Shown here piece by piece: positions 8,353 to 29,697 of a DNA stretch of 38,689 nucleotides (the stretch's first letter is position 1; the number at the start of each line of letters is the position of its first letter). The DNA comes from Candidatus Saccharimonadota bacterium (GTDB lineage: Bacteria; Patescibacteriota; Saccharimonadia; Saccharimonadales; OFTM59): positions 1 through 38,689 of the forward strand of contig JAJDCL010000018.1 in NCBI GenBank assembly GCA_029260875.1, in the 5' to 3' direction. The notes under the pieces are model-generated. The model saw only the letters and a list, made by a program, of their open reading frames with translations. It was not told the DNA's origin and did not search any database. The translations under genes and the position numbers were made by a program.

Positions 8353-8431
8353 AAGACTATAAGACGCAAAGCCTGGTCTTGCCATGCAAAAACTAGTTGC
8401 GTAAGTAGCAAATCTTACGCGCTGCCTGATT

Positions 8432-10314: not shown

Positions 10315-10349
10315 GCGTATAGCTAGCTTAGTCTGAATAGTAGTAAAAA

Positions 10350-10535: not shown

Positions 10536-10537
10536 AC

Positions 10538-11136: not shown

Positions 11137-11148
11137 ATAGATAGTTTA

Positions 11149-11607: not shown

Positions 11608-11616
11608 AATTCCTCC

Positions 11617-12000: not shown

Positions 12001-12151
12001 GACCTACCCCCCCAAAGATTTAATAATTCCCTACTTAATAATACAGGGTTTGGCAACCAGCTAGAATAAACTGTTTGTGGTTGAGCCCTAACTATTATTA
12101 GCTAACTTCTGCCTGGTTAGCATAAATCATAAACTTGGGTAAAATAAGTTT

Positions 12152-12463: not shown

Positions 12464-12517
12464 GTCAATTTGCAACAGAAGACAAGCACAGGCCATATAG
12501 GTTATACAGAACTTTTA

Positions 12518-13285: not shown

Positions 13286-13492
13286 TACTGAATAATAACA
13301 CACAGGGGGCGCAACTGGGGCTAAGCCGGCTATTGGCTGTAACTGAGCGCAACATTTTCCGCAATAAATACTCTTGGAGGAATGCCAAGCCCGAAAACAC
13401 CGTAGCACGTTAATTCGCTTTTCTGGCCTACAAAATAACTTGAGACACCCAAAGCACAGGGCTAGTATAATACGTAAAGTATGATATAACAT

Positions 13493-14203: not shown

Positions 14204-14235
14204 TTTGCCAAATGACGAGACCAGTTGAATAAGAC

Positions 14236-14283
14236 CAAAATAAAACAGGGCAACTCAGATTTCTGCTGCCCTGCTCTGTTTTT
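14236..14283. terminator. Bidirectional intrinsic terminator
   Basis: CAGGGCA (14246-14252) and TGCCCTG (14267-14273) form a stem flanked by an A-rich stretch on the left and a T run on the right, between two convergent genes. It can serve both the NTase-like gene and DUF378. Confidence 0.7.
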
Positions 14284-14303
14284 ATGTGTTGCGTGAAGGC
14301 TTG

Positions 14304-14513
14304 TTAAGCTTTGTCACCCTTTGACATCATAGATACAATTGAGTAAACACCGTATACCGCTGCTAGTCCCACTACGACATAAATAATTCTAGATAGCGCA
14401 GATTCTACCCCAAAAATGCTGTCCACAAGGTTGTAATCAAATGCACCTACTAACCCCCAATTCAGCCCCCCGACTACTAATAGTAAATATGTAACTTTTT
14501 CTGTTGCACTCAT
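14304..14513 (-). CDS. DUF378 small membrane protein
   Basis: 69 residues. KVTYLLLVVGGLNWGLVGAF followed by DYNLVDSIFG is the DUF378 (YuzA-like) signature, then a second helix IIYVVVGLAAVYGVYSIVSM and a short basic end. Two helices place it in the cytoplasmic membrane; function is unknown. A Shine-Dalgarno (AGGAGAG) lies before the ATG on the minus strand. Its neighbours do not suggest a pathway. Confidence 0.88.
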   Translation of the reverse strand: MSATEKVTYLLLVVGGLNWGLVGAFDYNLVDSIFGVESALSRIIYVVVGLAAVYGVYSIVSMMSKGDKA

Positions 14514-14746
14514 CTCTAACTCTCCTCGTTAATTACACTTATATTGTACGCCTACATGGCAAGCACCTCCTGGCCCTACTGCTGAGCACTATGCTGTATA
14601 CCCTGTTAAGAGTAGGCGCGCGCAGCGATGTTTAGCCTTTTTAGCTAAATAAAAAGCCTGAGCAAATGATATCGTCTGGCTGCACTTGCTATTAAGCGCC
14701 CAAAACACACATATGACACTTCATAAACCAGCCAATGAAATGTCAC

Positions 14747-14935
14747 TCAAGATTTGTTGCTTAGATATTTGCCGGCAATACTCAGTGCAAAACTAGGCAG
14801 AATAACAAATACCGAACTCAAGAACAGTTTAAACACCAGTGTTTCTTCATCAGGGTGTACAAAGATGTTGAAAATACCAAGCACCCCAAAAAGGATTGAC
14901 GCGCAAATAAAAATTTTTGTAGCTACTTTTTGCAT
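14747..14935 (-). CDS. Small two-helix membrane protein, hypothetical
   Basis: 62 residues from ATG at 14935, which is 6 nt after a perfect TATAAT (14942-14947); an upstream ATG at 14977 would precede this promoter. Helix one is about 6-27 (KIFICASILFGVLGIFNIFV), then the acidic loop HPDEETL, helix two about 33-55, and a basic tail. No family recognised. Monocistronic and leaderless by inference. Confidence 0.6.
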   Translation of the reverse strand: MQKVATKIFICASILFGVLGIFNIFVHPDEETLVFKLFLSSVFVILPSFALSIAGKYLSNKS

Positions 14936-15076
14936 ATCTTGATTATAACAAAACAGGCCACTGTTGCCACGCCACAAATCCCACCACCTCTGGCTAATTT
15001 ACACACTCCGCAATACTGATTCTACAAACAAGCTAAGCCTTTGCCGGTAAATACGTTATCTAATTATCCCAAGATT

Positions 15077-15187
15077 CTAGAAGCCACTTTCTATTAGTGC
15101 GCCTTCTGTTGCGTCTACAAAGCGTTGAATAATCTCTTTATATTCATCAGCTCTTATGTGGAATATTGAATTAGTCGCGTACTAACT
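15077..15187 (-). pseudogene. Short C-terminal coding remnant
   Basis: The minus-strand frame gives IFHIRADEYKEIIQRFVDA then TEGALIESGF and a stop at 15077-15079. It has protein-like composition but no start codon, and a stop 36 codons upstream. Probably the tail of a decayed gene in a stretch that otherwise (14936-15264) shows no gene. Confidence 0.3.
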
Positions 15188-15264
15188 CAACACCTTTGCA
15201 ACATAAATGGCAGGCATCCTAAACTGTAGTTACTACTAAATAATTACAAGGAAAGGAGCCTACC

Positions 15265-15390
15265 ATGGCTTATTCTAACAACCCTAATCTACCTAAAGCG
15301 AGAGCAATTGCTATGCAGTTGCTCATTTAAGAGAAGATATCATCTCAAGTGGTAGCTAACCGCTGCGGGTCTAGAGGACTACCCCCCCAC
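15265..15390 (+). pseudogene. Broken N terminus of an HTH-type transposase
   Basis: A good Shine-Dalgarno (AAGGAG) precedes ATG at 15265. The frame reads MAYSNNPNLPKARAIAMQLL, one more residue and TAA at 15328, then continues EKISSQVVANRCG. This is the start of an insertion-sequence transposase with an N-terminal helix-turn-helix (the VANRCGV-type recognition segment), disrupted by a stop and then interrupted at 15371 by a palindromic repeat. Whether it is the same IS as at the contig ends cannot be told. Confidence 0.5.
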
Positions 15391-15462
15391 AGAGGATAAA
15401 ATACGAACTAGCTGATCGCCAAAACGCAACAATTCCCTATCTGTTAGAGGACGGACCTCTAG
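15371..15462. repeat. REP-like palindrome pair, first locus
   Basis: A half site CTAGAGGAC at 15371 is followed by TAGAGGACGGACCTCTA (15445-15461), an imperfect palindrome with a 6-bp stem. Bases 15420-15462 are identical over 43 bp to 17937-17979. The unit sits inside the broken transposase gene, so it was inserted or copied there. Confidence 0.7.
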
Positions 15463-15568
15463 AACCAACTGGCGTAACAGTCACCCCGATTAAAGCTCAT
15501 TTTGAGAAGTAGATTCTTCTCTATAGCCGACAAGTAAGTATTTATGCTAGATGCTACTGAGTCAATTT

Positions 15569-16358
15569 CTAGAGCTCTCCAGAGCCATCAGCACCACCAG
15601 AACGCTGCCTATCAGCAAGATGTTCTCCCTGTCGAAGAATATAGTCAACCCAATACAGCTTTCCGTCACTTGCTTGGTTAGGAGTTACACGGTCATTAGG
15701 GTCAATAGGTAACGCCAAGTCTAGGTAAGTACAAAACCCAATATCAAAGCCCATATTGCTAAGAACTAATAATTCGCCCAAACTCCCTGGGGCTAGGTTC
15801 TGCGTTATCCACACCAATATCGCCACCAAGTAGTCGTCTAAATAATTCACATGTTCGTTCTCGGCCCTCTGTATTCGCCCTTCCAAACTCCACACTTGAA
15901 CCATCCACAACAACAGATTGTGGCTTGCCACTTTTATCGAGCACGATAGTTGTGCTGCCGTAATCAGCTGGCTCAACACTAATCCCCTTGTCAAGGCCCC
16001 GACTGCGTAGAATGTGTAAAGCTTGTGCTTCTAATCTGTTGTGACGCAAACTAGCCATACAAAGACCGTAATGGGAAACACCAGACAACCCTATGGTTGT
16101 GCCCATCATAAGAATGTCATCAAGTTGAGCTTGCGCACCTTCTACTGCATGCAGCAGAGCAAAACGTCCAAACTTACCACAAAGCCTATCTTCGGGCTTC
16201 CAGCATTCAACGTCAAGAACGCCTGCATTTGCCTGCTTGAAACCATCAGGTAAATAAATTTTACTTAATCCGTTTACGTAAAACTTAATCGCATCAGCAG
16301 ACACTTCTCGAACGAAGTCCGATGGTTCATGCAGTATAGCAGAAACCGGGCTATCCAT
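15569..16358 (-). pseudogene. Hypothetical gene with probable frameshift
   Basis: From ATG at 16358 (Shine-Dalgarno AGGAGA) the frame runs 199 residues to a stop at 15759, ending AEPSPREFGRIISS. Near 15770 the neighbouring frame takes over with protein-like sequence (GELLVLSNMGFDIGFCTYLD, later PIDPNDRVTPNQASDGKLYW) to a stop at 15569. Joined, the product would be about 260 residues. No recognisable family or motif; no membrane helix. A sequencing error or a real mutation in this decayed zone are both possible. It is flanked on both sides by the palindromic repeats. Confidence 0.45.
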
Positions 16359-16628
16359 TAAATTTTCTCCTAAATATCCTTTAGTTATAGATTATGATTG
16401 CTAATATGTCAAATATGCAATTGTACAGGAAAGTCTTACTGGAGATCAGCTCTGGCGGATAGTGAGGTTGCAGCTCTATGAAGTGAATTTGCGCCAGTTA
16501 TTATTATGGGCGTATTTTACGGCCGTAGTGTTATGAGCAGACACTGCTTTCAAAACGCTTCGTGCAAGAAGGGTTCAAAGGACTGCCCTCTAGAACAGGG
16601 TGCAGATTGTCTTTGGTCCAAACGTACT
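16359..16628. other. Intergenic stretch with a degenerate palindrome
   Basis: AAAGGACTGCCCTCTAG at 16578-16594 is a degenerate copy of the REP-like palindrome. Around it the plus-strand frame reads RFVQEGFKGLPSR, which might be a relic of a transposase tail. Nothing else is recognisable. Confidence 0.4.
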
Positions 16629-17021
16629 CTAGTTGCATGTCTGCTCCATGATACTTTTTAATTTCTCTAAAACATCTTGCGAGAAAGTGTTGTCTAGTTC
16701 GTCCTCATCAACCCATTCGTAATACTCAAACTCACAACCGCCATCGTCCGTTGGCGTAAACGTGTAACGGACGTGATAGTTGCTGTTTATGCGACTTAGC
16801 TCAAACATTTTGTCTTGTTCAAAAGCGGTCATCTTGTATTCGTTCCGGTTACCGCCTTTGCCTTTATTGCGGTAGATTGTGCCTATCTTTGGCGGTGTTT
16901 CGTTTGTTTCTTCTGTCACTATGCCGTCAATCCACTTGGGCGTATTATCAGGATTAACGGTAAAATCAAACACTTCGCTAACTGGCTTGTTTATGACAAT
17001 TTTTAGTCTTTTATCTTTCAT
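16629..17021 (-). CDS. SRPBCC-fold (polyketide-cyclase-like) protein
   Basis: 130 residues with the START/SRPBCC pattern: INKPVSEVFDFTVNPDNTPK at the start, a beta-rich middle (MFELSRINSNYHVRYTF) and a C-terminal helix (DVLEKLKSIMEQ). The fold makes a hydrophobic ligand pocket; the ligand is unknown. It overlaps the HAD gene by 4 bp and is the last gene of the operon HTH, HAD, SRPBCC. Confidence 0.8.
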   Translation of the reverse strand: MKDKRLKIVINKPVSEVFDFTVNPDNTPKWIDGIVTEETNETPPKIGTIYRNKGKGGNRNEYKMTAFEQDKMFELSRINSNYHVRYTFTPTDDGGCEFEYYEWVDEDELDNTFSQDVLEKLKSIMEQTCN

Positions 17022-17665
17022 TTTTTAAGCTCGCTGGTGTTGGCTATACTGCTAGCGTTTTCAGCCTGAAACTGTCCGGCAGTCACTAAACCAGTTTCAA
17101 CGCCAAGAAAGCTAAATCCAGCTCCTTTGGCAGCTCGCATATCGTGTAACCCGTCGCCAACGTAAACTACTTCGTCGGGGCGTATTTGTTGCTCGGCTAG
17201 CCATTCTAGAGCAGGTTCAAAAACCCTAGGGTCGGGTTTGTGATATGGTGTGTCGTCAGCTGTTTGCGTATAGTCAAGCAGCTCCCTTGGTATTTGGTGC
17301 AATGTTAGGTCATGCTCAAAACTAAAACGGCTTGTTGCGGTAATGATGCCTATGAGTTTTCCAGTAGCACTTATATGACGAAGCGTCGGTATCGTTGCCG
17401 TAAATAGTTCCTTCGGAAAATCCTCGTGTGTTGCTGTATTGTGAGCCATAGCTTGTTCTACGTCGTCCGTGCCATACAGTAGACATACAAGCTCTCTCAA
17501 AGGCTTACCCCAATGTTCTTTTATTTCATCGTCAGTAAGCTCTTTGCCATAGAAAGTTCGTGCTACGTGTTTGTGTTGCTCCCATTTCGTACCGATAGTG
17601 CCAACGAGCGTATCGTCGTGGTCAAAAAAGACAACCTTAATGTTATCTGCAATATGCTCGCTCAC
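17018..17665 (-). CDS. HAD-family hydrolase (PpaX/phosphoglycolate-phosphatase-like)
   Basis: 215 residues. VVFFDHDDTLVG holds the nucleophile motif DHDDT, GIITATSR is motif II, the lysine in YHKPDPRVF is motif III, and VYVGDGLHDMRAAKGAGF is motif IV. An alpha-helical C1 cap lies between motifs I and II. Members hydrolyse small phosphate esters; substrate unknown. It is coupled by 4-bp overlaps to the HTH gene upstream and the SRPBCC gene downstream. Confidence 0.85.
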   Translation of the reverse strand: MSEHIADNIKVVFFDHDDTLVGTIGTKWEQHKHVARTFYGKELTDDEIKEHWGKPLRELVCLLYGTDDVEQAMAHNTATHEDFPKELFTATIPTLRHISATGKLIGIITATSRFSFEHDLTLHQIPRELLDYTQTADDTPYHKPDPRVFEPALEWLAEQQIRPDEVVYVGDGLHDMRAAKGAGFSFLGVETGLVTAGQFQAENASSIANTSELKK

Positions 17666-17856
17666 TTTTTATGCTCCGTAAATTTCATCAAGTCTTCCTT
17701 CCTGTAGCGTCTCAATTTTCGCTCACCAATCCGAATTGCTTTAAGGGGGCCTTTCTTGTCCCAGGCACGAAGCGTGTTGGGGTGAACTTTTAGTAGCTCA
17801 CTTGCTTGCTTTAGGGTTAGTAATTCTTGCAATTGCTCTTGTGGTATTTTCCTCAC
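17662..17856 (-). CDS. MerR/excisionase-type HTH protein
   Basis: 64 residues. LLTLKQASELLKVHPNTLRAW followed by DKKGPLKAIRIGERKLRRY is the helix-turn-helix and wing of the excisionase/MerR-like (HTH_17) family, with the tail RKEDLMKF. Start is a GTG at 17856; an ATG nearby (17863) is in another frame 6 nt after a TATAAT box, so the true start is uncertain. It heads the operon with HAD and SRPBCC genes and may regulate it. A palindromic repeat pair lies just upstream. Confidence 0.75.
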   Translation of the reverse strand: MRKIPQEQLQELLTLKQASELLKVHPNTLRAWDKKGPLKAIRIGERKLRRYRKEDLMKFTEHKK

Positions 17857-17910
17857 TCCTCATAGCTGTATTATACAACCATAAATTAGTAGGATTACTT
17901 AGCCAGGAAT

Positions 17911-17979
17911 CCAGAGGACTGTCCTCTAGGGCCATTCAAAACGCAACAATTCCCTATCTGTTAGAGGACGGACCTCTAG
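17911..17979. repeat. REP-like palindrome pair, second locus
   Basis: AGAGGACTGTCCTCT (17913-17927, a near-perfect palindrome) and TAGAGGACGGACCTCTA (17962-17978) are separated by about 35 bp. Bases 17937-17979 equal 15420-15462. The pair is placed between the HTH operon promoter and the end of the diaminopimelate decarboxylase gene. Confidence 0.75.
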
Positions 17980-18047
17980 GGGCCTATAGGGACTCTGGGG
18001 AATGGGCTTTTCTGTCACTGATTTTAGTGTTTCAGATCTGTAAATAA

Positions 18048-19208
18048 TCAGACAACAATCTCGGTCGCTTTCGGAATGTCATTGTATTGCACAGGGGCCA
18101 TACTTGCACAGTACGCGCCAGCTCCGCGGATAGCAACATAATCGCCAATTTTCGCTTTTTTCAACATTCTTGGCTTTACTTCTTCTGGGTTGCCGCTTGC
18201 TGGTGTTAGTATGTCTCCGCTTTCACAACATGGTCCGACTACAACGTAATCTTGATATATAGTTTCATCATTTAGAACCTCAATTGGGTGCTGTGCGCCA
18301 TAAATTGATGGCCGGAGAATTGCGTTCATCCCCGCGTTTAGCCGAAGGAAGTTGTATTTTGGAGTTGAGACTATATCTTCAATTCTGGCAAGCAATGTGC
18401 CGGCGTTGCCAACGAGCCACGTACCCGGCTCGATCTCAAGCCTCAGCCCCCGCCCTGTTTTATCAGCAAATTTTCTTAGTTCATGGGCAAAGATCTCCAG
18501 CACCTTCATCATGTCTGTCGGCTTATCTTCTGGCATGCGGGCAATTTTGAACCCACCACCAACATCAAGAGTCGTTGCTGTTGGTACAGCTTTAACTACG
18601 GTTAGACTTCTTTGAATCGTATCTTGCCAAACGCTTGGGTCGACGCCGCTGCCAATGTGGGTATGAACCCTATTAATGGACATGCCTTTTTGCTTGACAG
18701 ATTCAAGCACTTCGGGCAACTGTTCGTGCCATATGCCAAAACTGCTGACTGGGCCACCGACGGTTGTACGATTATTGTGGCCTGAACCCTTTCCGGGGTT
18801 GATACGAACAGCTATGGAAGTTTTGTTGAGCTGGTGCAATGTATCAATCTGTTTGAGTGACGTTGCAACAGGCAAAACTTTATGATCTAAAACAGCCTGT
18901 GTGGTTGGAGAAGATTGTAGAATCTGTGGGCAAAGACTAATTTTTTCTCCCTCAATGCCGTAGCCGAGTAATCGCTCTGATTCCTGGGGTGAACTCGCAT
19001 CAAAATGTAGCCCGAGACCGTTAAAGTGCTGAATAATTTCAGGATGAGGGTTGGCTTTGACAGCATAGCGGACAGTCATTCCGTAAGGCATTTTAGCTGA
19101 GAGTAATATTTCTGCAGCAGCAGTCATCGTCTCTCGTTCATAAACAAAAAGGCCGCCCTGGCCCATATGTTGATCAGCGATTACGCGCAGCCGTTCGGTA
19201 CTTATCAT
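18048..19208 (-). CDS. lysA: Diaminopimelate decarboxylase-like PLP enzyme
   Basis: 386 residues of the fold III ornithine/DAP decarboxylase group. The PLP lysine is Lys51 in VRYAVKANPH; HTHIGSG, LDVGGGF, EPGTWLVG (phosphate contacts), LNAGMNAILRPSIYGAQHPI, GPCCESGD and GAYCASM (substrate site) follow in order. The reaction would be decarboxylation of meso-diaminopimelate to lysine. Without other lysine genes in view it might act on scavenged diaminopimelate from host wall or on a related amino acid. Shine-Dalgarno AAAAGGAG precedes the ATG. Monocistronic. Confidence 0.85.
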   Translation of the reverse strand: MISTERLRVIADQHMGQGGLFVYERETMTAAAEILLSAKMPYGMTVRYAVKANPHPEIIQHFNGLGLHFDASSPQESERLLGYGIEGEKISLCPQILQSSPTTQAVLDHKVLPVATSLKQIDTLHQLNKTSIAVRINPGKGSGHNNRTTVGGPVSSFGIWHEQLPEVLESVKQKGMSINRVHTHIGSGVDPSVWQDTIQRSLTVVKAVPTATTLDVGGGFKIARMPEDKPTDMMKVLEIFAHELRKFADKTGRGLRLEIEPGTWLVGNAGTLLARIEDIVSTPKYNFLRLNAGMNAILRPSIYGAQHPIEVLNDETIYQDYVVVGPCCESGDILTPASGNPEEVKPRMLKKAKIGDYVAIRGAGAYCASMAPVQYNDIPKATEIVV

Positions 19209-20408: not shown

Positions 20409-20449
20409 AAAGTAAAAGCCCCAACCAAAATGGCTAGGGCTTTTACTTT
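20409..20449 (-). terminator. Strong hairpin, probably the original terminator of tRNA-Asn
   Basis: AAAGTAAAAGCCC (20409-20421) and GGGCTTTTACTTT (20437-20449) form a perfect 13-bp stem. It abuts the left attachment core. If the element is removed, this hairpin lies directly after the CCA end of tRNA-Asn on the minus strand, the expected place for its terminator. Confidence 0.7.
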
Positions 20450-20455
20450 GGCTCC
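20448..20455. other. Left attachment core (attL)
   Basis: TTGGCTCC between the orphan terminator hairpin on the host side and the detached recombinase tail on the element side. Confidence 0.65.
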
Positions 20456-20574
20456 CATTGATGGACGTTCTTCGCAACTCTTTTAAACAACTAACAGAGG
20501 TAGATCCTTCTATCACTCACTCCCTCTCTGCATTAGTGAGCCTATCCCCCCCTGAGCTAATGGCAACAGATTAG
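20449..20574 (+). pseudogene. Detached native C-terminal tail of the serine recombinase gene
   Basis: From the core, the frame that matches the recombinase reads WLPLMDVLRNSFKQLTEVDP, then 21 more residues (including SLSALVSLSPPELM) to TAG at 20572-20574, 41 codons in all. There is no start codon. In the circular form this follows residue 479 of the recombinase, giving a 520-residue enzyme. Composition is protein-like. The link is inferred from reading-frame phase and position. Confidence 0.65.
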
Positions 20575-20580
20575 GGCGTT

Positions 20581-20601
20581 GTACAATGTCGAATATTGTA
20601 C
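20581..20601. promoter_or_regulatory. Operator-like palindrome
   Basis: GTACAAT (20581-20587) and ATTGTAC (20595-20601) are perfect inverted repeats, centre to centre 14 bp, located about 185 bp before the STAND gene and just inside the element's left end. Could be a repressor or recombination-factor site. Confidence 0.35.
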
Positions 20602-20784
20602 GATGACCCTGTTGCACTATGTATGTTGTAAAAGAACTTTTACGACTTATCGCCGCGTGATAGCCGGTAGAACGTACCCCACCTTCTCTTTTTATTCCCT
20701 ACTCTCTGTACTAAGTATGCGCGCAAAATTTTTTAGTACTTTATATTCATTAGCTACGATTATAACAAATGTTAAGATTATTAT

Positions 20785-23094
20785 ATGAATAACTATAGTT
20801 TCAGTATGCTATCGCCTGATGAATTTGAAGAGTTAGCCAAAGACATTTTATCTGCTGAGCATGGAGTAATCTATGAATCTTTTGCAAGTGGACGTGATGG
20901 TGGAATTGATTTACGTTATTCTCGCCCTAAAGGTCAAACAACTACAATCGTTCAGTGTAAACGCTATACCGATGCCTCAAAATTAGTAAACAATCTTATC
21001 CATCATGAGCGCCCAAAAATCGACCACTTAAAAGAGAAACCAACCAGGTATATTATTGTATGCTCTGTAGATTTAAGCCCATCCAAGGTAGATCTGATAT
21101 TTGATGCGTTCTCTCCATATATGGTGAGTAAAAGTGATATTATTACCCCAAGACAGATCAATTCATTACTTGCGAAGCATTCAAGTGTCGAGAAGCGACA
21201 TTATAAGCTCTGGCTTCTGAGTACGAACGTACTCGAACGAATCGTACATTCAAACATTGGGAACTACGGACATCTAACTGAATTAGAAATTAAAGAAACG
21301 CTTAGGCAGTACGCTCCGTTGCCAGTGATGGATGAAGCACTCGATAAGCTTCGTCAGTATGGCTATATAATCATCGCAGGACAACCGGGAGTTGGTAAAA
21401 CAACATTAGCAAATGTTATGTCGTTTTTACTGCTTGGCGATGAGGAGAATGGCTTTGAGGAGCTTATATCTATACCACGAGACTTCAATGATGCGATCAC
21501 CTTACTGAGTGCTGATCCCGACAAGAAACAGTTGTTTTTGTTCGATGACTTTCTTGGTGAAAATTTTTTGCAGTCTGGACTCGATCGGCATGAGAGTACC
21601 GTATTTGCAAATTTCTTGCGACACATCGAACGCTCGAAGAAAAACAAAGCCCTAATTATGACCACACGCGAGTATATCTTACGTCAAGCCGCTGAGACCT
21701 CTCGTATATTACGAGAAAGAACAACGCGAGAGCGAGAGTACATTGTTGATCTCACAAAGTATCCCCTCGAGACAAAAGCACGCATATTATACGAGCATGT
21801 ATCTCGATGGGACATTCCAGAGGAGCATTTGCAATATTTTCTAAGTAATCATATCTACAGAAAAATAGTAAAGCACCGAAACTATTCTCCGCGTCTGATA
21901 GAAGGTATTAAACGATACAACCTATGGCAAGATACTACGCCAGAAGAGTTTTGCGATAAGCTTATCGAGGTATTCGATTACCCTGAGAGCTTATATAAAG
22001 GCATTGTTGATAACGAGCTAAGCCAAACAGAACGAGCCTTGCTTCTGGTTATGATGTCGTTTGGTGGAAGTGTACCTTTAAGTGACCTGCGAAAGGCGGT
22101 CTTGGCGTACAGCTCTGATATAGATGAGGTGTCCTTCGAAAAATCAATCGATATACTTGATGGAACATTCTTACTAACCAATCAAATTTCTAGCACCACT
22201 ATTGTTGGATTTTATAACCCAACTATTTACGACTTTTTGCTTCGCTATTTCGAGAAAAAAATTGAAAGCCAAAAACGACTCATTGAAAATGCAATTTATC
22301 TTAATCAGATTGTAAATAGCTTCGCCTTCAATAAGCCTGCTATTGATGCCCGTGAACTTTTCGGAACTAAAGTAAACATGTTTTTGAATCCGTTCACAAA
22401 AAAGATCCTCGTAGAAAACAATATCAAGCAGTGCATCTCTGGTGTGATTCTATCAAGGCGTAATCAGTTAAAATTTATTGATAAAGATATGCAAGTCAAT
22501 GACTATAGTGAAGATCTCTTTGAGCATGCCGAACGTTTAACTAATAACGAGTTAAGCTCACCGGCTATCGAAAAAGTTGTCGTGCAAGACATTGTTAACG
22601 CTCTACAAGAAGGCTCACTTATAATTAATTCTGCAACAAATGCCTTATATATCTATGAATATCACCTAGCAGATATATTAAATGCAGGGCAAACAAAGTA
22701 CTTAGCCGAAGAGGTCGCACAAGTATGCTCAAATTATGATGATTTGTCTAGAGTCCAAGAGCTTACATTGAATCCATCAACAAGAGATTTTGCCGAATTC
22801 ATTATAGAAGGGATTCACAATACACTCAGCGTTGAAGAAATGCTCGATAACGAGATACAGCAGAGGTTTGAATCAGAAGATGATTACGACGATATCATAC
22901 CAGAACTTCATGATGTCGCCGAGGCATTCTCCGTTCCAATCTCCAGCTTAGAAAGCTACCTTGACTCATTAATGGAACCCCCGGAAGATGCAGCCGGATT
23001 CTTTAGCAGAAACGACGACGCATTTGAGTCATCCCGTGAGATTGAAGGTTCGGAAAACGATATCATGGACAATATTTTCGATTCCTTGAGGTAG
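20785..23094 (+). CDS. Mrr-type nuclease fused to STAND NTPase (Avs-like defence protein)
   Basis: 769 residues. Residues 8-130 form an Mrr-like PD-(D/E)xK domain: Glu15, GRDGGIDL (Asp42 as the metal ligand) and VQCKRY (Gln57, Lys59). The NTPase has Walker A GQPGVGKT (199-206), Walker B LFLFDDF (Asp254-Asp255) and MTTRE (292-296), resembling nSTAND3. A helical region follows (about 350-720) that could sense a ligand, and the last 60 residues are acidic. Proteins with this layout in antiviral STAND (Avs) systems detect phage proteins and cleave DNA. The trigger here is unknown. ATG follows TAAGAT by 6 nt, suggesting a leaderless mRNA. Convergent with the PHP-ATPase gene. Confidence 0.82.
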   Translation: MNNYSFSMLSPDEFEELAKDILSAEHGVIYESFASGRDGGIDLRYSRPKGQTTTIVQCKRYTDASKLVNNLIHHERPKIDHLKEKPTRYIIVCSVDLSPSKVDLIFDAFSPYMVSKSDIITPRQINSLLAKHSSVEKRHYKLWLLSTNVLERIVHSNIGNYGHLTELEIKETLRQYAPLPVMDEALDKLRQYGYIIIAGQPGVGKTTLANVMSFLLLGDEENGFEELISIPRDFNDAITLLSADPDKKQLFLFDDFLGENFLQSGLDRHESTVFANFLRHIERSKKNKALIMTTREYILRQAAETSRILRERTTREREYIVDLTKYPLETKARILYEHVSRWDIPEEHLQYFLSNHIYRKIVKHRNYSPRLIEGIKRYNLWQDTTPEEFCDKLIEVFDYPESLYKGIVDNELSQTERALLLVMMSFGGSVPLSDLRKAVLAYSSDIDEVSFEKSIDILDGTFLLTNQISSTTIVGFYNPTIYDFLLRYFEKKIESQKRLIENAIYLNQIVNSFAFNKPAIDARELFGTKVNMFLNPFTKKILVENNIKQCISGVILSRRNQLKFIDKDMQVNDYSEDLFEHAERLTNNELSSPAIEKVVVQDIVNALQEGSLIINSATNALYIYEYHLADILNAGQTKYLAEEVAQVCSNYDDLSRVQELTLNPSTRDFAEFIIEGIHNTLSVEEMLDNEIQQRFESEDDYDDIIPELHDVAEAFSVPISSLESYLDSLMEPPEDAAGFFSRNDDAFESSREIEGSENDIMDNIFDSLR

Positions 23095-23141
23095 ATAATC
23101 GAGTAACTTACTCTGTTTCTATGCTTAACGCACGTAAATTT

Positions 23142-25985
23142 TTAGTTTATTCTGTATTTTTTCTGGCGCTTTTTGAATGCCGTATGTCCACCTTCTAATA
23201 CCTTGAGAGCAATTTTACGGATATCATCATCTTCCAATGAACCGGCAAGGTAGTGTATTTCAGATTCATTTTTCTCAGCAATGATTAACTGATCAGCATC
23301 ACTATTGATAACAACATTTCCATTGTTAGAGACAATGATTACTTGACGAGTTTTCTTTGCTTCCCTAAGGGCCGGAACTAGCTCGTCCATAATGAATGCG
23401 TTGTCGAGGTGGTCATCGTGCGAATCAATAATAATTGGATGCTCACCTTGTGCTAAATAAACCTTGATTAGAACTGTAGCCTTTTGGCCTAGAGAAAGCT
23501 TGTCGATGGCCACTGATTTGTACTTTGCTGACGGGTACACGGTTAAGTATTCACCGTACAAAAATCGATAGAAACTAAACAGATTTACATTAGGTGATTT
23601 TTTCAGTTTTGTTTTTAGACCAGTCCTGATTGACTCTAATTCAGCGAGTAAGTTAGGAATTTCTTCGGAGTCTCCGGATCGAATCTTGCGGTAAGCCTCA
23701 AGTGTTTTGAATAAATCAGAACCTTCCTTATCGTTTGTATTGACCGATCTAAGGTCAAAAATTTCTTCTGCCAATTGAACAAATTTCTCAGCATCAAATT
23801 TGATTGTTGCCGAGAATTCAACATCCTCAAGGATCTTCCCTTTATTCTCACCAAAAGTATTAGTTATCTGGATGTACTTGTCTTTGAGGCTGATCGACTG
23901 CTTGATGAGTTTTTCGAAGGCCTCATTGCGCCTACCTTCAAGTTCTTCTAGTTCAAGTTTGTTGGCGTTAAGCTTGTCTCGCTTAAGTTTATTCTGCTCT
24001 AAAGCATGTTCAAGATCTTTAATTTCCTGGCTTAGGGTCGCATGGCTTTTTGTAGTTGATTCCAATTTTTCTACTACCACTTGGCTCGTTTTCAAGTCGG
24101 TGATTGTCTTAGTTAGTTTCTGGTGAATTTGTTTAGACACATTCTCAAAGATAGGTTGGTATGTCGTAGAATTAATTTCAATTTCCGGGATAGTTTTATC
24201 AATCTTAAAGGCAATTAATGAGGTATTAATCTGCTTTATAGATGCATTGACAGTAGATAATTCGTACTCAACTTTGTCCCCTAATTCGCGTAAATGTAAC
24301 AATGTCGATTCATATTTTGACTTTTCTAACTTCAAATTCTGTACGTCTTGCTGCTTGGACTTTGCGAGATCGATAGTCTCTTTGCTCAAGCTCTTTTCAA
24401 GTTCAAGAAGCTTTTGTTTCTTGTCCTTTAATTGTTCATTGGTTTTCTTGTCAAACGTTGCTAAGTTCGTTATTTTCTCGGTGCTGGTCTCGGACTCAAG
24501 GGAGATAATTAACTCGTTAAGCTTCTTAATTCGTTCTTTAAAAAACGACTTCTCTTCCCTGATGCTCTTAAACTCAAATTCTAATTGAGAGTCTTTTATT
24601 TCCTTGCTTCCGAATACTACCTCATGGATCTGGCTATTAAGCCCACCACTCTTGAAGATGGCTTCTTCTAATTCCGCTTGCGCAATATAAGTTATATCCG
24701 CAAAGTCAACAAACTTATCCTCTAGGGCGTTTTTTGAAAAAGAGTTATTGTTGACGTACTCTAGAGAGACTTTAAGGCTTATACCTGTATTCGATGAGAT
24801 TCTCTTTACAAAAGAGTTTGGATCATCGCTTTGTTTCCTATCAAAGTAGCAGTTCGCGAGTAGGTCTACAAAAGCAGTCTTACCCGAACCCTTTGCTCCT
24901 GTGACTGCAATCAAGTCAGCATTCAAAGGGATGTGGACTCCTTGAATCTTTAGGTGTTTATCGATGATTGTCTCTTCAATATCTATTGATTCCAAGGACA
25001 GGCCACTTTTTAAGAACGTGGGATCTGTTGGCTGAATCGAAACTCTCTCCTCAGGCTCATACAAGAGTTGTCTTAAACCTTCAAAAGAAGGATTCGCCCT
25101 AACCCAACAGAACCGCATCTCGCAGTCGGTGTCGTTGCATACGTGCCCTTTCTTACCACGTAGTGCGCAGGGCCTAAGAAGCTCGTTTAGCTCGTGCCCA
25201 TCACTACCATGTATGCATGGTTTAAGAGTTTTGAACTCTTTTCGGAATGCTCCTTCGCCTTCTTTGTAGGGGTCTTTGCCCAAGCACCATTGCGAGGTCT
25301 TTGCGTTAGAACTGAAGACCATATCACTTGCTTGTAAAAGTGTTTTCCTTGTCTGGTGATCTTGCCCTTCCCATGCTATGTCTGACCAGATCTGCTCCGC
25401 GACAACTAGAATGTACTTATCTTTAAAACGCTTATCTTCTGTCAGCACTTTGATTACATTCTCAAGACTGACTACCGCATTGCCCGCACCGACTTCAATC
25501 TCAGTGCCATTGAGGCTATTGTCTTCTTCGCGTAATTTTTTTCCAAGTTCTCTGAGGTTGGTTTCATCTATTCGCATCTTATACTGAGTATCTTGCGGCC
25601 GGTTTTCATAAACGAAATTTAAGTTGCCTAAAAACTGTTGTTCAATCAGGGACGCAGGGAGCGTTTCTGAGAAAATTACATGGTAGTTTATGCGTTTGTC
25701 ATCAACGAAGTTATCAAGCCTTAGCTCTATATTTGGAAGCAACTGGTGAACATTCTTCAGCCTCCCATTGTCTTTAAACTCTTGTAACTTCTTGTATCCC
25801 TCAATAGAAAAGTAGTCTGTAATTCCAAGTACGCCAATCTCGCCTCTTGATTCAATCTCTTTAAGATATGTTTCCCAATCTGGTTGCCCATCACCAAGCC
25901 TTGGAAATTTATTGTTAAGATAGGAAGTTGGACTATGTATATGCAAGTCCCATTTTCTCCATATTGATCCGCGTTTGTAGTCCAT
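23142..25985 (-). CDS. PHP-domain/SMC-like ATPase (TrlF/Ppl type)
   Basis: 947 residues from ATG at 25985; a TTG at 25994 is an alternative start. The N-terminal PHP phosphoesterase has KWDLHIHSP (H-x-H), GITDYFSI, a Glu in LLPNIELRL and CIHGSDGHE (Asp and His). A Cys cluster (CALRGKKGHVCNDTDCEMRF, then C) may bind zinc. The ATPase has Walker A TGAKGSGKT, a long coiled coil (about 475-720), the ABC signature LSLGQKA and Walker B PIIIDSHDDH. PHP plus SMC-like ATPase matches the TrlF family and the single-gene Ppl antiphage system. Residues look intact. The end is 48 bp from the convergent STAND gene. Confidence 0.82.
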   Translation of the reverse strand: MDYKRGSIWRKWDLHIHSPTSYLNNKFPRLGDGQPDWETYLKEIESRGEIGVLGITDYFSIEGYKKLQEFKDNGRLKNVHQLLPNIELRLDNFVDDKRINYHVIFSETLPASLIEQQFLGNLNFVYENRPQDTQYKMRIDETNLRELGKKLREEDNSLNGTEIEVGAGNAVVSLENVIKVLTEDKRFKDKYILVVAEQIWSDIAWEGQDHQTRKTLLQASDMVFSSNAKTSQWCLGKDPYKEGEGAFRKEFKTLKPCIHGSDGHELNELLRPCALRGKKGHVCNDTDCEMRFCWVRANPSFEGLRQLLYEPEERVSIQPTDPTFLKSGLSLESIDIEETIIDKHLKIQGVHIPLNADLIAVTGAKGSGKTAFVDLLANCYFDRKQSDDPNSFVKRISSNTGISLKVSLEYVNNNSFSKNALEDKFVDFADITYIAQAELEEAIFKSGGLNSQIHEVVFGSKEIKDSQLEFEFKSIREEKSFFKERIKKLNELIISLESETSTEKITNLATFDKKTNEQLKDKKQKLLELEKSLSKETIDLAKSKQQDVQNLKLEKSKYESTLLHLRELGDKVEYELSTVNASIKQINTSLIAFKIDKTIPEIEINSTTYQPIFENVSKQIHQKLTKTITDLKTSQVVVEKLESTTKSHATLSQEIKDLEHALEQNKLKRDKLNANKLELEELEGRRNEAFEKLIKQSISLKDKYIQITNTFGENKGKILEDVEFSATIKFDAEKFVQLAEEIFDLRSVNTNDKEGSDLFKTLEAYRKIRSGDSEEIPNLLAELESIRTGLKTKLKKSPNVNLFSFYRFLYGEYLTVYPSAKYKSVAIDKLSLGQKATVLIKVYLAQGEHPIIIDSHDDHLDNAFIMDELVPALREAKKTRQVIIVSNNGNVVINSDADQLIIAEKNESEIHYLAGSLEDDDIRKIALKVLEGGHTAFKKRQKKYRIN

Positions 25986-26059
25986 ATGTAACAATTCTAC
26001 ACCCTATTAACGAGGTAATTAAGTACTTAAGGTTGCTTATGTGTTTTAAATACAGGAGT

Positions 26060-26224
26060 TTATTCTGTTTTTAAGACATGGTGTTTTTTTATAGCTTCTT
26101 GTAGAGCGTATTTTGCTATTACGTCTAAATCATAGACGAGCTGTTCAATTTCGATATCTGTCATATTTTTGGCTGAGCTACCAAGAAGTTCTCGAGCCTC
26201 TTCAGTGCTTAATACTGGATCCAT
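26060..26224 (-). CDS. 54-residue acidic helical protein
   Basis: ATG at 26224, two bases after the DUF805 stop, so the genes are coupled. The product starts MDPVLSTEEARELLGSSAKN and continues MTDIEIEQLVYDLDVIAKYA, then LQEAIKKHHVLKTE. It is fully helical with a regular acidic/hydrophobic pattern. Small proteins of this look (S-x-E-E-A-R-x-L-L-G ... L-x-D-L-x-x-I-A) recur in mobile elements, but function is unknown. Confidence 0.65.
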   Translation of the reverse strand: MDPVLSTEEARELLGSSAKNMTDIEIEQLVYDLDVIAKYALQEAIKKHHVLKTE

Positions 26225-26226
26225 TG

Positions 26227-26685
26227 TTATTCCCCTGTCATGAGTAGGAATGAGAAGAACAATCCAGAAAGATAGATCATGAACAAAGTAACAGACACTA
26301 TTCCGGCGATTCTGCTTCCGCCCTTGAAACGAATGCCGTAGATACGACTTATCCTAGACTCTTCGCCCCACCTATTCTCGCCTTTAGTACTGGGAAGTAT
26401 CCAGAGGTATATCAGAAAGAATAGTGTTGCTGGTGGCAGCAAGAAGAGTGCCCGCCAGCCGCTTTTATTGCCATCGTGCAGACGCCTGACTGACCATAAG
26501 ATTATGAATACGACCAGTACTATGCTGGTAGCGCGTGCAAAGGTCGCTACATTCATATTCGAATCAACAGTACCTTCCACTGATCTTGCTAAAGAAAGTG
26601 CCGCCGAAAACGCTGGAAACGCAAAAAGCATAGTCCAGAAATAAGATATTTGATTTAGTCTAGCTTTATTTGAATGCTCCGACAT
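26227..26685 (-). CDS. DUF805 membrane protein
   Basis: 152 residues with four likely membrane helices. SVRRLHDGNKSGWRALFLLP then LFFLIYLWILPSTKGENRWG is the DUF805 (YhaH-like) signature. Role unknown; cargo membrane proteins in elements can act in immunity, exclusion or surface change. Shine-Dalgarno AAGGGAG lies before the ATG at 26685. Upstream is a structured leader RNA ending in a terminator-like stem, so expression is probably conditional. The 54-residue gene follows directly. Confidence 0.82.
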   Translation of the reverse strand: MSEHSNKARLNQISYFWTMLFAFPAFSAALSLARSVEGTVDSNMNVATFARATSIVLVVFIILWSVRRLHDGNKSGWRALFLLPPATLFFLIYLWILPSTKGENRWGEESRISRIYGIRFKGGSRIAGIVSVTLFMIYLSGLFFSFLLMTGE

Positions 26686-26713
26686 ATGGCTCCCTTGTTA
26701 ATGGGGCTGAAAT

Positions 26714-26839
26714 AAAAAAGGACAACCCCTCTAGATTGTCTAGACCAACACAGGTTGTACCCTGCGCTTTCGAGAGGTTGCCCTTTTTGGGTACAACCAA
26801 TCAAAAATTGGCTTTCTTACAAGCTGTGTTGATCTAGAC
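26714..26839 (-). ncRNA. Structured leader RNA with pseudoknot/terminator, before DUF805
   Basis: Minus strand, 5' end at 26839, 6 nt after a TATGAT box (26846-26851). P1: 26824-26839 pairs with 26738-26753 (16 bp, one G-U; on the plus strand this would be a C-A mismatch, so the RNA is minus-sense). A small hairpin lies at 26797-26811. P3: 26789-26798 pairs with 26753-26762 (10 bp, perfect). The loop of P3 (26772-26788) pairs with 26715-26731 beyond P1, about 17 bp ending in a U tract. The last stem can be an intrinsic terminator or a pseudoknot. No known family recognised. Confidence 0.65.
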
Positions 26840-26873
26840 CTCCATATCATAGCAAAAGATCTATACTATCTGT

Positions 26874-27349
26874 ATGGGTGATAACGACCATTCTGATAAA
26901 AGTCTTGAGCAAAGGTATCTCAAAGCACTCTTTCTTATTGAAGAAAGATTAGAATACATGTCCCAAGCAATTGACAGAAATACAGCAGCAATCAATATAA
27001 TCAGGGAATCTTTGCCACCGGTTCCCGTAACTCCTATTCTTGTTTCTGAATTGAAGTATGATTATAAAACTAAGACTCTATGGGCTGACGAACGTTATTA
27101 CATTAAATTTGAAGGTAAACAAGCCCAGTTGCTCGCACGACTATTTACCAAAACAGGCATACCACGAAGCACACCCTTGCTTATTGACACATTAGTAGAG
27201 GAATCTTTTGATTATGCAACGAATAAGTCGCAGAAACCAAGAACTTCTACTTAAGAGCTAATGAAGTAAAGAAAAAACTTGATGAGGGTTTTAGGACAAA
27301 TAACTTACTAACCGTTACGTTGAAAAAGATCTATTTCAATCACGATTAA
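26874..27349 (+). pseudogene. Winged-helix-like element protein with a -1 frameshift
   Basis: The first frame runs 126 residues to a stop at 27252. From about 27215 the -1 frame continues VAETKNFYLRANEVKKKLDE then GFRTNNLLTVTLKKIYFNHD to TAA at 27347. The joined protein of about 158 residues has a helical N terminus (1-45) and a C-terminal half resembling an OmpR-type winged helix (LKYDYKTKTLWADERYYIKF ... LTVTLKKIYF). No slippery heptamer is present, so mutation or sequencing error is likelier than programmed shifting. ATG follows TATACT by 6 nt (leaderless), divergent from the leader RNA of DUF805. Confidence 0.6.
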
Positions 27350-27396
27350 CAGGGGCGCATAGTTTTAGAACGTTTTATCGTCAATGAGTTGCTTTA

Positions 27397-27513
27397 ATGC
27401 TAATCATGCAGGACAAGATAGGCGATTTAGATCCTCAAGAGCTTAACCAATTAGTTGAGTTCTTTAAGCTTCTTGCTGAGATTGAGAGTGGTGATGCAGA
27501 GAAAACCAAGTGA
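27397..27513 (+). CDS. 38-residue hypothetical protein
   Basis: ATG at 27397 (or 27406). The sequence reads IGDLDPQELNQLVEFFKLLA then EIESGDAEKTK, acidic and helical. It overlaps the start of the next gene by 20 bp, suggesting translational coupling. No family recognised; kept because composition and coupling look real. Confidence 0.45.
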   Translation: MLIMQDKIGDLDPQELNQLVEFFKLLAEIESGDAEKTK

Positions 27514-28036
27514 AGATATGCCGAGGGGCTTAAAGCCGTTGCAGATAAAGTTTTTTGCCCTTCTGGGACAAGAAGGGCCTAAGCCTATCCCACCAAAACT
27601 TGTCTTGATTTTTGGCTATCCGTTATCAGTTATGATCGTGCAGCTTCTTTTTTGGAAAGGCATGCAAATGCGGAAAGATGGGTTCATTTTTAAAACAGAG
27701 AAAGACTTCATTGATGAAGTCGGGTTAACATCAGCTCAGCAGAAGCTTGCGATCAAAAAAGGTAAAGCATTTGGATTCCTGACTGTTGAGCGTAAAGGTA
27801 TTCCTGCTAAGCGCCACTATCTACTTGATTTTGATAGATTGGTTGATGCAACGATCAATGAGGCAGCCCGAAAAGGCATTGTGCTAACAAAAAGCTATTT
27901 CAAGTTAGCTTCTAAGCACCGACAGCACTCAGGTGCTAAGAGCCAATCTAATACAGATAACACTACAGAAACCACAGCAAGATATCACAGTACCCAATCA
28001 ATCGGTTCTGTATTGCCCAATAAATACAAACGGTAG
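27494..28036 (+). CDS. Winged-helix DNA-binding protein of mobile elements
   Basis: 180 residues from ATG at 27494. Residues about 40-125 (YPLSVMIVQLLFWKGMQMRK, then FIFKTEKDFIDEVGLTSAQQ, GFLTVERKGIPAKRHYLLDF) match a winged-helix domain seen in plasmid and phage proteins linked to replication or regulation, where a W-x-x-x-T-x-x-E-x-x-x-x-x-G-L-S pattern is common. The C-terminal 45 residues are Ser/Thr/Asn-rich and likely disordered. It precedes the recombinase; the promoter of the recombinase leader RNA overlaps its 3' end. Confidence 0.65.
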   Translation: MQRKPSEDMPRGLKPLQIKFFALLGQEGPKPIPPKLVLIFGYPLSVMIVQLLFWKGMQMRKDGFIFKTEKDFIDEVGLTSAQQKLAIKKGKAFGFLTVERKGIPAKRHYLLDFDRLVDATINEAARKGIVLTKSYFKLASKHRQHSGAKSQSNTDNTTETTARYHSTQSIGSVLPNKYKR

Positions 28037-28042
28037 TAAAAT
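28013..28042 (+). promoter_or_regulatory. Promoter of the recombinase leader RNA
   Basis: TTGCCC (28013-28018) and TAAAAT (28037-28042) are 18 bp apart. The start expected near 28048 coincides with the first base of helix P1 of the RNA. Confidence 0.5.
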
Positions 28043-28047
28043 GAAAG

Positions 28048-28167
28048 GGCTTTTCCAGTTTAATACTATATCGCAGCGCCTTTTTATTTCTGCTCTTAAT
28101 GGGCGGTTGTGTTCAGAAAGACGCTGCAAAGTTGTTGGACTGGAAAAGCCACAACCGTCCATTTTTT
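28048..28167 (+). ncRNA. Structured leader RNA with pseudoknot/terminator, before the serine recombinase
   Basis: P1: 28048-28059 pairs with 28139-28150 (12 bp, perfect). P2: 28073-28078 with 28122-28127. P3: 28087-28092 with 28114-28119. The apical loop segment 28098-28110 pairs with 28151-28163 (13 bp, one G-U), directly 3' of P1 and running into a T tract to 28167. That last stem can act as an intrinsic terminator or, with P1-P3 kept, a pseudoknot. The recombinase Shine-Dalgarno (AAGGAG) starts 7 nt later. Same topology as the RNA before DUF805. Confidence 0.65.
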
Positions 28168-28185
28168 GTATTTAAGGAGCAGCCA

Positions 28186-29664
28186 ATGAAAGCGTTTCTA
28201 TTAGCCAGAGTATCTACTGATGATCAGAAAGATGCGTTACCTGCCCAGACTTTTCGGTTAACGGAATACGCTAAGCGAAGAGGATATGACTTCAAGCTAT
28301 TTGAGCTGAAAGAATCAGCATACAAAGGTAATCGTGATTATTTCGGTCAGGTTGTGCGTGAAATTGAACTCAATAATGATCCAGCAATTGTAGTTTTTGG
28401 TAAGATTGACAGATATACCCGTGATTCTAGTTCAAATGAAGTTCGTATACTGCAGTCGTTGTACCGATCTGGTAAGATTGAACTTCACTTCCCCTCTGAT
28501 AACCTCTTCATTCATAAAGACTCACCAGCTACCGATCTCCTCAGATTAGGTATGGGAATTGTCGTTGCGCAATATTACTCTGATGCAATCAGCGATAATG
28601 TTAAAAGACGGTTTGAGCAGAAATGGCGAGATGGAGAATGGACTGGTGTAGCACCTATAGGTTATAAGAACACAGTTAAAGAATCAGGTAAGAAATGGAT
28701 TGAGATTGATACCTTCAAGGCTGAAGCCGTAAGAGAAGCTTTCAGGTCATATGCAACAGGACTTACATCACTTCGAGAAATAAGTAAGAAGTGGCAATCA
28801 GACTTTGGAATCAAAGTTAATCAAAGCAGTATCGACATCATGCTCAAGAATCCGTTTTACTACGGCGTAATGCGCGTTAAGGGTCAATTGTACCCTCATA
28901 AATATGAAGCTCTCATTTCTAAACAACTATATGATGATGCTGAACGGATCAGAAATGGGTACAAAGTTAAACCTCATAGGTGGGGCGGACTTCCCTATGC
29001 ATATAGGGGGCTGATAAGTTGTGCGGAATGTGGCTGTAGAATTACTTTTGAAAAGAAGAAAGGTAAATATATTTACGGGCATTGTACGCAATATAGAGGC
29101 AAACATAACGCTACATATATTTCAGAGGATATACTTACCGTTCAGCTTGCTGAACTATTCAAATCTATCCAGATACCACGCAATGCGTATAAGCAAGTGA
29201 GCGAGGCTCTACGAGCTTCACACCAAGACAAAATTCGCATGAGAGATTCATCATTGGCAACCTTGGATACCGAGATAGAAAAGTATCAGAGTCGTATTGA
29301 GAAAGTATATGAAGACTACTTAGATGAGAAGATTCCTGAGGACCTATATCAGCGTAAATTTGATGAGTATAAAGCCACCCAGAAGAATCTTCAAAACAAG
29401 CGATTAAACATCGAACAAATCGAAGAAGAATACTACGGAACAATGGCTCATCTGTTAAAGCTCTCGAAACATGCTCCTATGCTTTTCGGAAAGGGCGATG
29501 TGGAGCAAAAACGCGCGATCATTAATTTAACGCTTTCGAACTTATTGCTGGATGGAGATAAACTTCGGTGGGAACTAAAAAAGCCATTCGATACAATGGC
29601 TTTTTGTAATGATAATGGTAATTGGCTCCTGGGGCCGGACTCGAACCGGCAACCATTCGATTAA
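28186..29664 (+). CDS. Large serine recombinase (integrase) of the element
   Basis: 492 residues from ATG at 28186 with Shine-Dalgarno AAGGAG. N-terminal resolvase domain with catalytic Ser10 in FLLARVSTDDQ; recombinase domain (about 160-260); zinc ribbon (CAECGCRITF ... YGHC); coiled coil (about 345-420) typical of this class. It makes strand exchange between attP and attB. The last 13 residues (WLLGPDSNRQPFD) are read through the attachment core into the antisense strand of tRNA-Asn; the native tail lies orphaned at 20449-20574. An 11-bp hairpin with A and T runs is inside the coding 3' end. Expression is probably controlled by the leader RNA. Confidence 0.92.
   Translation: MKAFLLARVSTDDQKDALPAQTFRLTEYAKRRGYDFKLFELKESAYKGNRDYFGQVVREIELNNDPAIVVFGKIDRYTRDSSSNEVRILQSLYRSGKIELHFPSDNLFIHKDSPATDLLRLGMGIVVAQYYSDAISDNVKRRFEQKWRDGEWTGVAPIGYKNTVKESGKKWIEIDTFKAEAVREAFRSYATGLTSLREISKKWQSDFGIKVNQSSIDIMLKNPFYYGVMRVKGQLYPHKYEALISKQLYDDAERIRNGYKVKPHRWGGLPYAYRGLISCAECGCRITFEKKKGKYIYGHCTQYRGKHNATYISEDILTVQLAELFKSIQIPRNAYKQVSEALRASHQDKIRMRDSSLATLDTEIEKYQSRIEKVYEDYLDEKIPEDLYQRKFDEYKATQKNLQNKRLNIEQIEEEYYGTMAHLLKLSKHAPMLFGKGDVEQKRAIINLTLSNLLLDGDKLRWELKKPFDTMAFCNDNGNWLLGPDSNRQPFD
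29578..29605. terminator. Bidirectional terminator inside the recombinase 3' end
   Basis: AAAAAGCCATT (29578-29588) and AATGGCTTTTT (29595-29605) are perfect inverted repeats with a 6-nt loop. On the minus strand it lies 18 nt after the CCA of tRNA-Asn and ends in a T run, so it can replace the tRNA's displaced terminator. Confidence 0.65.
29622..29629. other. Right attachment core (attR)
   Basis: TTGGCTCC covering the encoded CCA, the discriminator and the last acceptor bases of tRNA-Asn; identical to 20448-20455. Confidence 0.65.
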
Positions 29665-29697
29665 CAGTCGAATGCTCTACCATTGAGCTACCCAGGA
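29623..29697 (-). tRNA. tRNA-Asn (anticodon GTT)
   Basis: Minus strand: acceptor TCCTGGG/CCCAGGA, D arm, anticodon stem TTCGA/TCGAA with loop CTGTTAA, T arm GCCGG/CCGGC, discriminator G and encoded CCA. Intact after integration. The 3' 42 bp also encode, antisense, the end of the recombinase. Confidence 0.97.

Follow-up and report, generated by a model that had tools for sequence, protein, structure and literature searches.

Self-disrupting recombinases are known from the archaeal suicidal integrases of the SSV, pTN3 and pT26-2 types, where the attachment site of the element (attP) lies within the integrase gene and the gene is altered by integration. In a 2021 review they were described as exclusive to archaea, and their exit is believed to require an intact integrase supplied in trans (PMC8371274). 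Here we describe an integrated element in contig JAJDCL010000018.1 of a Candidatus Saccharimonadota bacterium (assembly GCA_029260875.1; the window, 38,689 nucleotides) in which attP lies, almost certainly, within the gene of a large serine recombinase, as judged from the layout of the locus and its relatives. A first-pass annotation had made this proposal, including a swap of the C terminus of the enzyme upon integration, and the proposal is supported by an empty site, homologous tails, naturally contiguous genes and codon tests; the effect on directionality or stability of integration that was also suggested there is a putative one. Its comparison with SSV viruses is apt as an analogy, since attP lies within the gene in both cases, but it does not extend to the enzyme. 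The archaeal integrases are of the tyrosine class and their catalytic domain is split off, whereas the window enzyme is of the serine class, its catalytic part remains whole (479 of 520 residues, all catalytic residues included, stay together after integration) and only a C-terminal helix is replaced.

In the large serine integrases of the A118, Bxb1, phiC31 and SPbeta types attP is found beside the gene and is not known to lie within it. These enzymes share catalytic, Recombinase and zinc-ribbon domains and coiled-coil helices with the window enzyme, while a tail of the window type falls beyond the part that can be aligned to A118 integrase. BPs-group mycobacteriophages carry attP in the phage repressor gene and integration alters the repressor C terminus; the likeness is that attP within a gene changes the C terminus of a protein, the difference that the protein is a repressor there and the integrase here. 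Islander/TIGER tRNA islands also insert at the 3' end of a tRNA gene that is regenerated by the element, but usually employ tyrosine rather than serine integrases (PMC4383910), and their integrase is not rewritten. Within the open-access literature we found no account of a serine integrase gene that contains attP, nor of tRNA-associated cassette arrays of the serine type.

The features that define the attachment sites and the two forms of the enzyme are the following.

20409–20449, minus strand: original intrinsic terminator of tRNA-Asn, at the attL side (hairpin energy; empty site in genome G001)
20448–20455, plus strand: att core TTGGCTCC, left copy, attL (core search; empty site in G001)
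20449–20574, plus strand: integrase 3' segment separated by integration, encoding tail WLPLMDVLRNSFKQLTEVDPSITHSLSALVSLSPPELMATD with its stop; about the first 10 codons are conserved and the segment doubles as the P' half of attP (in-frame join; tails of relatives; codon tests)
28186–29664, plus strand: large serine recombinase, integrated 492-residue form, domains intact (Pfam; PHROG 95; model m01b2cce017d2)
29622–29629, plus strand: att core TTGGCTCC, right copy, attR, equal to the tRNA 3' end
29623–29664, plus strand: tRNA-derived replacement tail WLLGPDSNRQPFD and stop (reading of the open frame)
29623–29697, minus strand: target tRNA-Asn (gtt), intact after integration (ARAGORN; Rfam RF00005, 75 bits)

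The 8-bp repeat on which the first-pass annotation had built is present as TTGGCTCC at both element ends and consists of the final 7 bases of tRNA-Asn (GGAGCCA) and one more base. The 8-mer alone is weak proof, because a third copy is found at 1021 and 1.2 copies are expected per window by chance. The junction is fixed by a natural empty tRNA-Asn locus in G001 (G001:C6), the sole other genome of the same genus. This site was located through the tRNA-Asn itself; flanking proteins, as a route to the empty site, were not conserved in relatives. The outer bases at the left core form a perfect intrinsic terminator on the minus strand (−28.1 kcal/mol, z-score −6.1), and joining of the outer flanks in silico placed this hairpin directly after the CCA end of tRNA-Asn. 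The joined flanks and the G001 locus, whose tRNA-Asn carries the same terminator and the same downstream sequence, aligned over 242 columns at ~92% identity, gap-free across the predicted junction. The empty site therefore delimits an element of 9.17 kb whose two ends have the core TTGGCTCC in common. As in other tRNA-targeted integrative elements, insertion is at the tRNA 3' end, the tRNA is regenerated and the empty site is known.

In the integrated state the integrase gene starts at the ATG at 28186 and encodes 492 residues, the final 13 of which are read from antisense tRNA-Asn up to the stop at 29662–29664. Joining into a circle is in frame and gives 479 + 41 = 520 residues ending at the TAG at 20572–20574, with a predicted circular junction that contains AATGGTAATTGGCTCCCATTGATGG; the read-through and the residue counts of the first-pass annotation were thus both correct. 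In the sequence layout integration leaves the tail codons at the opposite element end, 9 kb from the rest of the gene. The core codon TGG is complementary to the CCA end that all tRNAs share, so the tail starts with tryptophan in both states. The Pfam domains PF00239, PF07508 and PF13408 (Resolvase catalytic, Recombinase and zinc-ribbon) all scored above cut-off, the protein matches PHROG 95, and residues R8, S10, D75, R76 and R79 were invariant across alignments. By its domains and fold the enzyme is classed as a large serine recombinase, predicted to recombine attP × attB; the outcome of integration is visible in the comparison of the occupied with the empty site.

Relatives were gathered from 295 genomes of the order and from GTDB contigs, and the ends of their recombinases were read. 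Read-through of the integrase frame into an antisense tRNA was observed in 75 of 104 distinct loci and involved ten isotypes, among them Asn (35), Gly (15) and Gln (13). In-silico joining to the upstream core copy recovered a common tail motif, W-[LQC]-x-[LI]-[VM]-D-x-[LF]-[RQ]-[TN], in dozens of relatives (joined tails include WLSLMDVLRN, WLPLVDVLRN, WQPLVDEFRT, WLGLVDEFQE and WCKIVDAFQT), and about 0 such motifs were found in shuffled sequence. Genes that are naturally contiguous with a tail were also found. Two elements lie in tandem in L089 (JAAXIO010000026.1), where the first integrase runs past the core, enters the second element at its left end and ends WLTLVDELRNDFEQSTEIDISRTCSVSTLATLLPPV, recognisably the tail of the window, while the second integrase ends in tRNA-Asn. 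In six more distant relatives with a tRNA-less junction (L128, L159, L099, L109, L125 and L151) a related short tail extends past the same point; L159 is, judged by eye, a viral contig with terminase-like genes. In the cultured isolate Legionella adelaidensis NCTC12735 a plasmid-borne integrase of this family runs into antisense tRNA-Asn, and the remnant of a second integrase is followed in frame by such a tail. Intact relatives that lack the tail would have spoken against the first-pass annotation; the relatives instead carry a homologous one. No match was obtained when INPHARED phage records were queried with the 41-residue tail alone, or when viral contigs were queried with a single protein or att pattern, and viral loci were found only with an alignment query.

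Several loci of the collection differ in detail. The Legionella element (L233, NZ_LR134433.1 241494–253931) is a 12.4-kb tRNA-Asn element on plasmid 24 with restriction and AbiE-type genes; its integrase is of the same family and its att site is self-overlapping. A single in-frame stop interrupts the integrase body of L079 (codon 256, TAG), L081 (codon 393, TAA) and L093 (codon 249, TAA), which we read as decaying copies or assembly errors. In L079/L040, L056 and L091/L049 the integrase ends at the core with no detectable tRNA, and the sequence after the core resembles a degenerate T-arm; these are perhaps tRNA remnants or secondary sites. The host genome carries four further serine recombinases of the family on contigs C5, C30, C3 and C20 (L002–L005), all adjoining tRNA genes (Gly, Leu, Arg and Ser), and for the one at tRNA-Gly a separate tail lies at a distance of 10.2 kb (L061:204).

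Constraint on the tail was evaluated at the protein and DNA levels. Tail sites had been collected by an amino-acid motif, which biases the conservation of codons 1–10. Codon-position entropy across 61 tails is partly circular, because the motif itself chose the sites, and was dropped as decisive evidence in favour of two tests, namely the ratio of nonsynonymous to synonymous differences (pN/pS) from codon 11 onwards and the free third base of an Arg codon. Past codon 10 the Gly clade (12 sites; 0.30/0.19/0.56 difference at the three codon positions) had a ratio of 0.33, the ADTFRT clade one of 0.17 and the pair L040/L078 one of 0.18, and other frames gave 0.84 or more. At sites collected by DNA pattern the Arg codon was AGR in 27 and AGY in 1 case versus CGR in 23 and CGY in 32 (p=7e-7, a value that is only indicative because the sequences are not independent). 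Protein-level selection across the family means that the tail is translated at some stage, and these patterns make it very probable that it is both translated and under selection. The combined att and tail DNA pattern was found in ~100 places in 61 of the 295 genomes, with 2 in a reversed-pattern control, and proved rare beyond the order, in a sample drawn from across the phylum. Judged from these comparisons, protein and DNA are both conserved, at different places of the tail. Conservation of the whole 41-residue tail was rejected for the clade of the window, where the ratio is 0.94 past codon 10. The 41 residues are not of uniform importance: in that clade only about the first 10, which are conserved in relatives, appear constrained as protein, and residues 11–41 drift.

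An AlphaFold model of the natural full-length integrase of L089 had an overall predicted local distance difference test score (pLDDT) of 85.9. Residues 481–493, the start of the tail, were helical with moderate confidence and the remaining tail was mostly disordered; the model of the integrated form of the window was disordered past residue 480. Coiled-coil-type helices at 332–379 and 385–411 of the L089 model resemble those of solved serine integrases, and the closest solved structures were serine integrase–DNA complexes (Foldseek, E-value 7e-20). The A118 integrase profile match stops at position 465, which places the tail outside the conserved fold.

The explanation that we favour as a whole, with slightly better than even confidence, blends the layout, selection on the tail and a self-limiting role of the tail switch. 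In the circle, as joined in silico, the gene crosses the core and encodes a 520-residue enzyme whose C terminus opens with a conserved helix of about 10 residues, WLPLMDVLRN. Integration fuses the gene to antisense tRNA-Asn, adding 13 replacement residues and regenerating the tRNA, and a terminator-like hairpin within the integrase gene takes the place of the lost tRNA terminator. The integration-competent form would be the full-length enzyme, whose gene is whole in the circle or is completed by an adjacent element in tandem, and recombination would strip the enzyme of its own C-terminal helix. Integration would then limit itself, a role that is proposed tentatively, at a little under even confidence. 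For excision, the tail-less form would have to retain some activity, or a complete integrase would have to be supplied by a neighbouring element, as in L089, or by a newly arriving one, as has been argued for archaeal suicidal integrases (PMC8371274). Several observations weigh against this explanation. The tail helix has a pLDDT of about 69 in the L089 model, tail codons from 11 onwards evolve neutrally in the clade of the window (three sequences, pN/pS 0.94), and the conserved codons 1–10 coincide with the expected P' half-site, so that DNA constraint also acts on them. The Arg-codon and codon-11 tests escape motif bias and do not escape shared ancestry. Furthermore, most integrated copies retain an open reading frame, which would be unexpected if the tail-less form were of no use over long periods.

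The self-truncation could also be the by-product of a platform in which interchangeable tails reside on small cassettes and the integrase borrows the adjacent tail, a reading that is rather unlikely, though it is compatible with the favoured explanation and does not exclude it. Arrays of 3–8 att and tail units, spaced 0.4–3.5 kb apart, are found at tRNA genes in L048, L047, L051, L046, L219, L221, L222 and L223. In L048 (G279:C6, oriented 7925–18504) seven cassettes of 0.6–1.2 kb at tRNA-Trp separate the integrase unit from the chromosomal flank, each opening with core and tail and mostly holding one main gene (C39-like, NUDIX and ADP-ribosyltransferase-like, by eye). Arrays at tRNA-Gln and tRNA-Trp occur without a recognisable nearby integrase in L219, L221, L222 and L223, and the apparent protein-level constraint on tails of integrase-less cassettes suggests a shared pool of tails available to integrases. 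Arrays of 4–8 such units at tRNA-Trp, tRNA-Gln and elsewhere, some accompanied by an integrase and some not, the spread of the att and tail pattern through the order and the use of the second element's tail by the first integrase in L089 all speak for a platform. Against it, the window holds one tail and one element, and movement of the cassettes is putative. Just outside the cassette core a conserved GCTTATGCT or its inverse AAGCATAAGC was found in L040, L043, L044, L046, L048, L219 and L221, and was absent from integrase-coded right ends; it is probably a recombinase half-site. Hairpins are also seen at the right ends of cassettes. The arrays recall integrons in that some integrase relatives adjoin small cassettes bounded by repeated recombination sites, and differ in that integrons employ a tyrosine integrase on folded attC, whereas here a serine family, a tRNA anchor and a coding tail per site are found. 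The window itself encodes no tyrosine IntI and is one multi-gene element rather than an array of single-gene cassettes, while cassette arrays do occur in its relatives L048, L221 and L223. These loci may represent a serine-recombinase counterpart of integrons at tRNA genes of Saccharibacteria and relatives, with non-autonomous cassettes whose att site is a replacement C-terminal helix, a suggestion that falls somewhat short of an even chance. If true, cassette movement and integrase activity would be coupled via the integrase's own tail.

The tail might instead be conserved as DNA only, as the P' arm of attP, with an idle peptide and an enzyme that works equally with either tail. In accordance with this, conservation in the clade of the window ends after about 30 bp, which matches a serine-integrase half-site in length, the P' arms are similar to the half-site in the tRNA gene (TGGCTGGGGCTAGTGGAT versus TGGCTGGGGATGAGGGAT), the same arms are present on cassettes without an integrase, and many integrated reading frames remain intact. 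However, the synonymous pattern at the Arg codon, pN/pS values of 0.17–0.33 far past the half-site in three clades and the retention of the helix motif in distant relatives with contiguous genes argue against it, and constraint on DNA alone is considered unlikely.

A switch in directionality, with the full-length enzyme performing attP × attB and the tRNA-tailed form attL × attR recombination in the absence of a separate excision factor, would make use of the exact coupling between the state of the DNA and that of the protein. In large serine integrases direction is controlled by the C-terminal region, through the coiled coil and the recombination directionality factor (PMC10754689), and read-through tails keep the tryptophan and often have D/E at the same position. 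The replacement tails nevertheless vary wholly with the isotype of the tRNA and are modelled as disordered, so they are unlikely to confer a specific ability to excise; a loss of function is the simpler account, and the switch as a whole is regarded as distinctly improbable. Finally, a coincidence of an 8-bp repeat with an open frame, or a misassembled locus, is already refuted for practical purposes, since, even with one 8-mer copy per window about expected, the G001 empty site, dozens of relatives of the same layout in independent assemblies and the isolate plasmid all stand against it.

The remaining features of the element are the integrase leader, a hairpin in the integrase gene and the cargo.

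20785–23094, plus strand: Mrr-type nuclease and nSTAND3 NTPase, candidate defence protein PDC-S73 (Pfam, PADLOC)
23142–25994, minus strand: TrlF-family AAA-like ATPase (NCBIfam NF045780, 469 bits, above cut-off)
26060–26224, minus strand: small open reading frame, no family (open reading frame list, Pfam)
26227–26685, minus strand: DUF805 membrane protein (Pfam)
26874–27254, plus strand: open reading frame of 126 residues, no family (open reading frame list, Pfam, PHROGs)
27455–28036, plus strand: replication-initiation O-like/DnaD-like protein (PHROGs 9773, E-value 9e-19)
28045–28165, plus strand: structured integrase leader, interleaved inverted repeats (folding)
29575–29610, minus strand: terminator-like hairpin in the integrase coding sequence, antisense (z-score −4.05)

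The hairpin is formed by the last integrase codons (KKPFDTMAF) and may, being terminator-like, stand in for the displaced terminator of tRNA-Asn. In most of the clade of the window the majority of synonymous recodings of the same protein give a less stable hairpin, and in several cases ≤5 of 100 recodings reach its stability. An in-gene terminator as a general trait of the family was rejected, as only this clade clearly beats synonymous recoding. The leader contains pseudoknot-like A-B-A'-B' repeats, GGCTTTTCCAGT and GGGCGGTTGTG with their complements, and in L039, L042, L051, L078, L089 and L092 the sequence of arm A varies with pairing kept. It had no Rfam match, and the Rfam search yielded tRNA only. 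The TrlF-family ATPase is a distant relative of the anti-phage protein Ppl, with a match to Ppl below cut-off. No family match to conjugation or virion genes was obtained among the element proteins. From its gene content the element is classed as a small defence-type island with a serine integrase, a replication-initiator-like protein and defence-type cargo.

A recombinase that is rewritten by its own reaction would record its state in its own sequence and offer a simple means of limiting or directing the reaction that needs no further factor. The reviewed self-disrupting cases are archaeal and tyrosine only, whereas the trait here is bacterial, serine-class and widespread. The layout would account for many of the unusual C-terminal ends, antisense tRNA peptides, that are read for serine recombinases in genomes, and it provides candidate attP/attB pairs for ten tRNA isotypes as possible genetic tools in Saccharibacteria. 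The cassette arrays at tRNA genes, in turn, look like an unrecognised gene-capture system in bacteria with tiny genomes.

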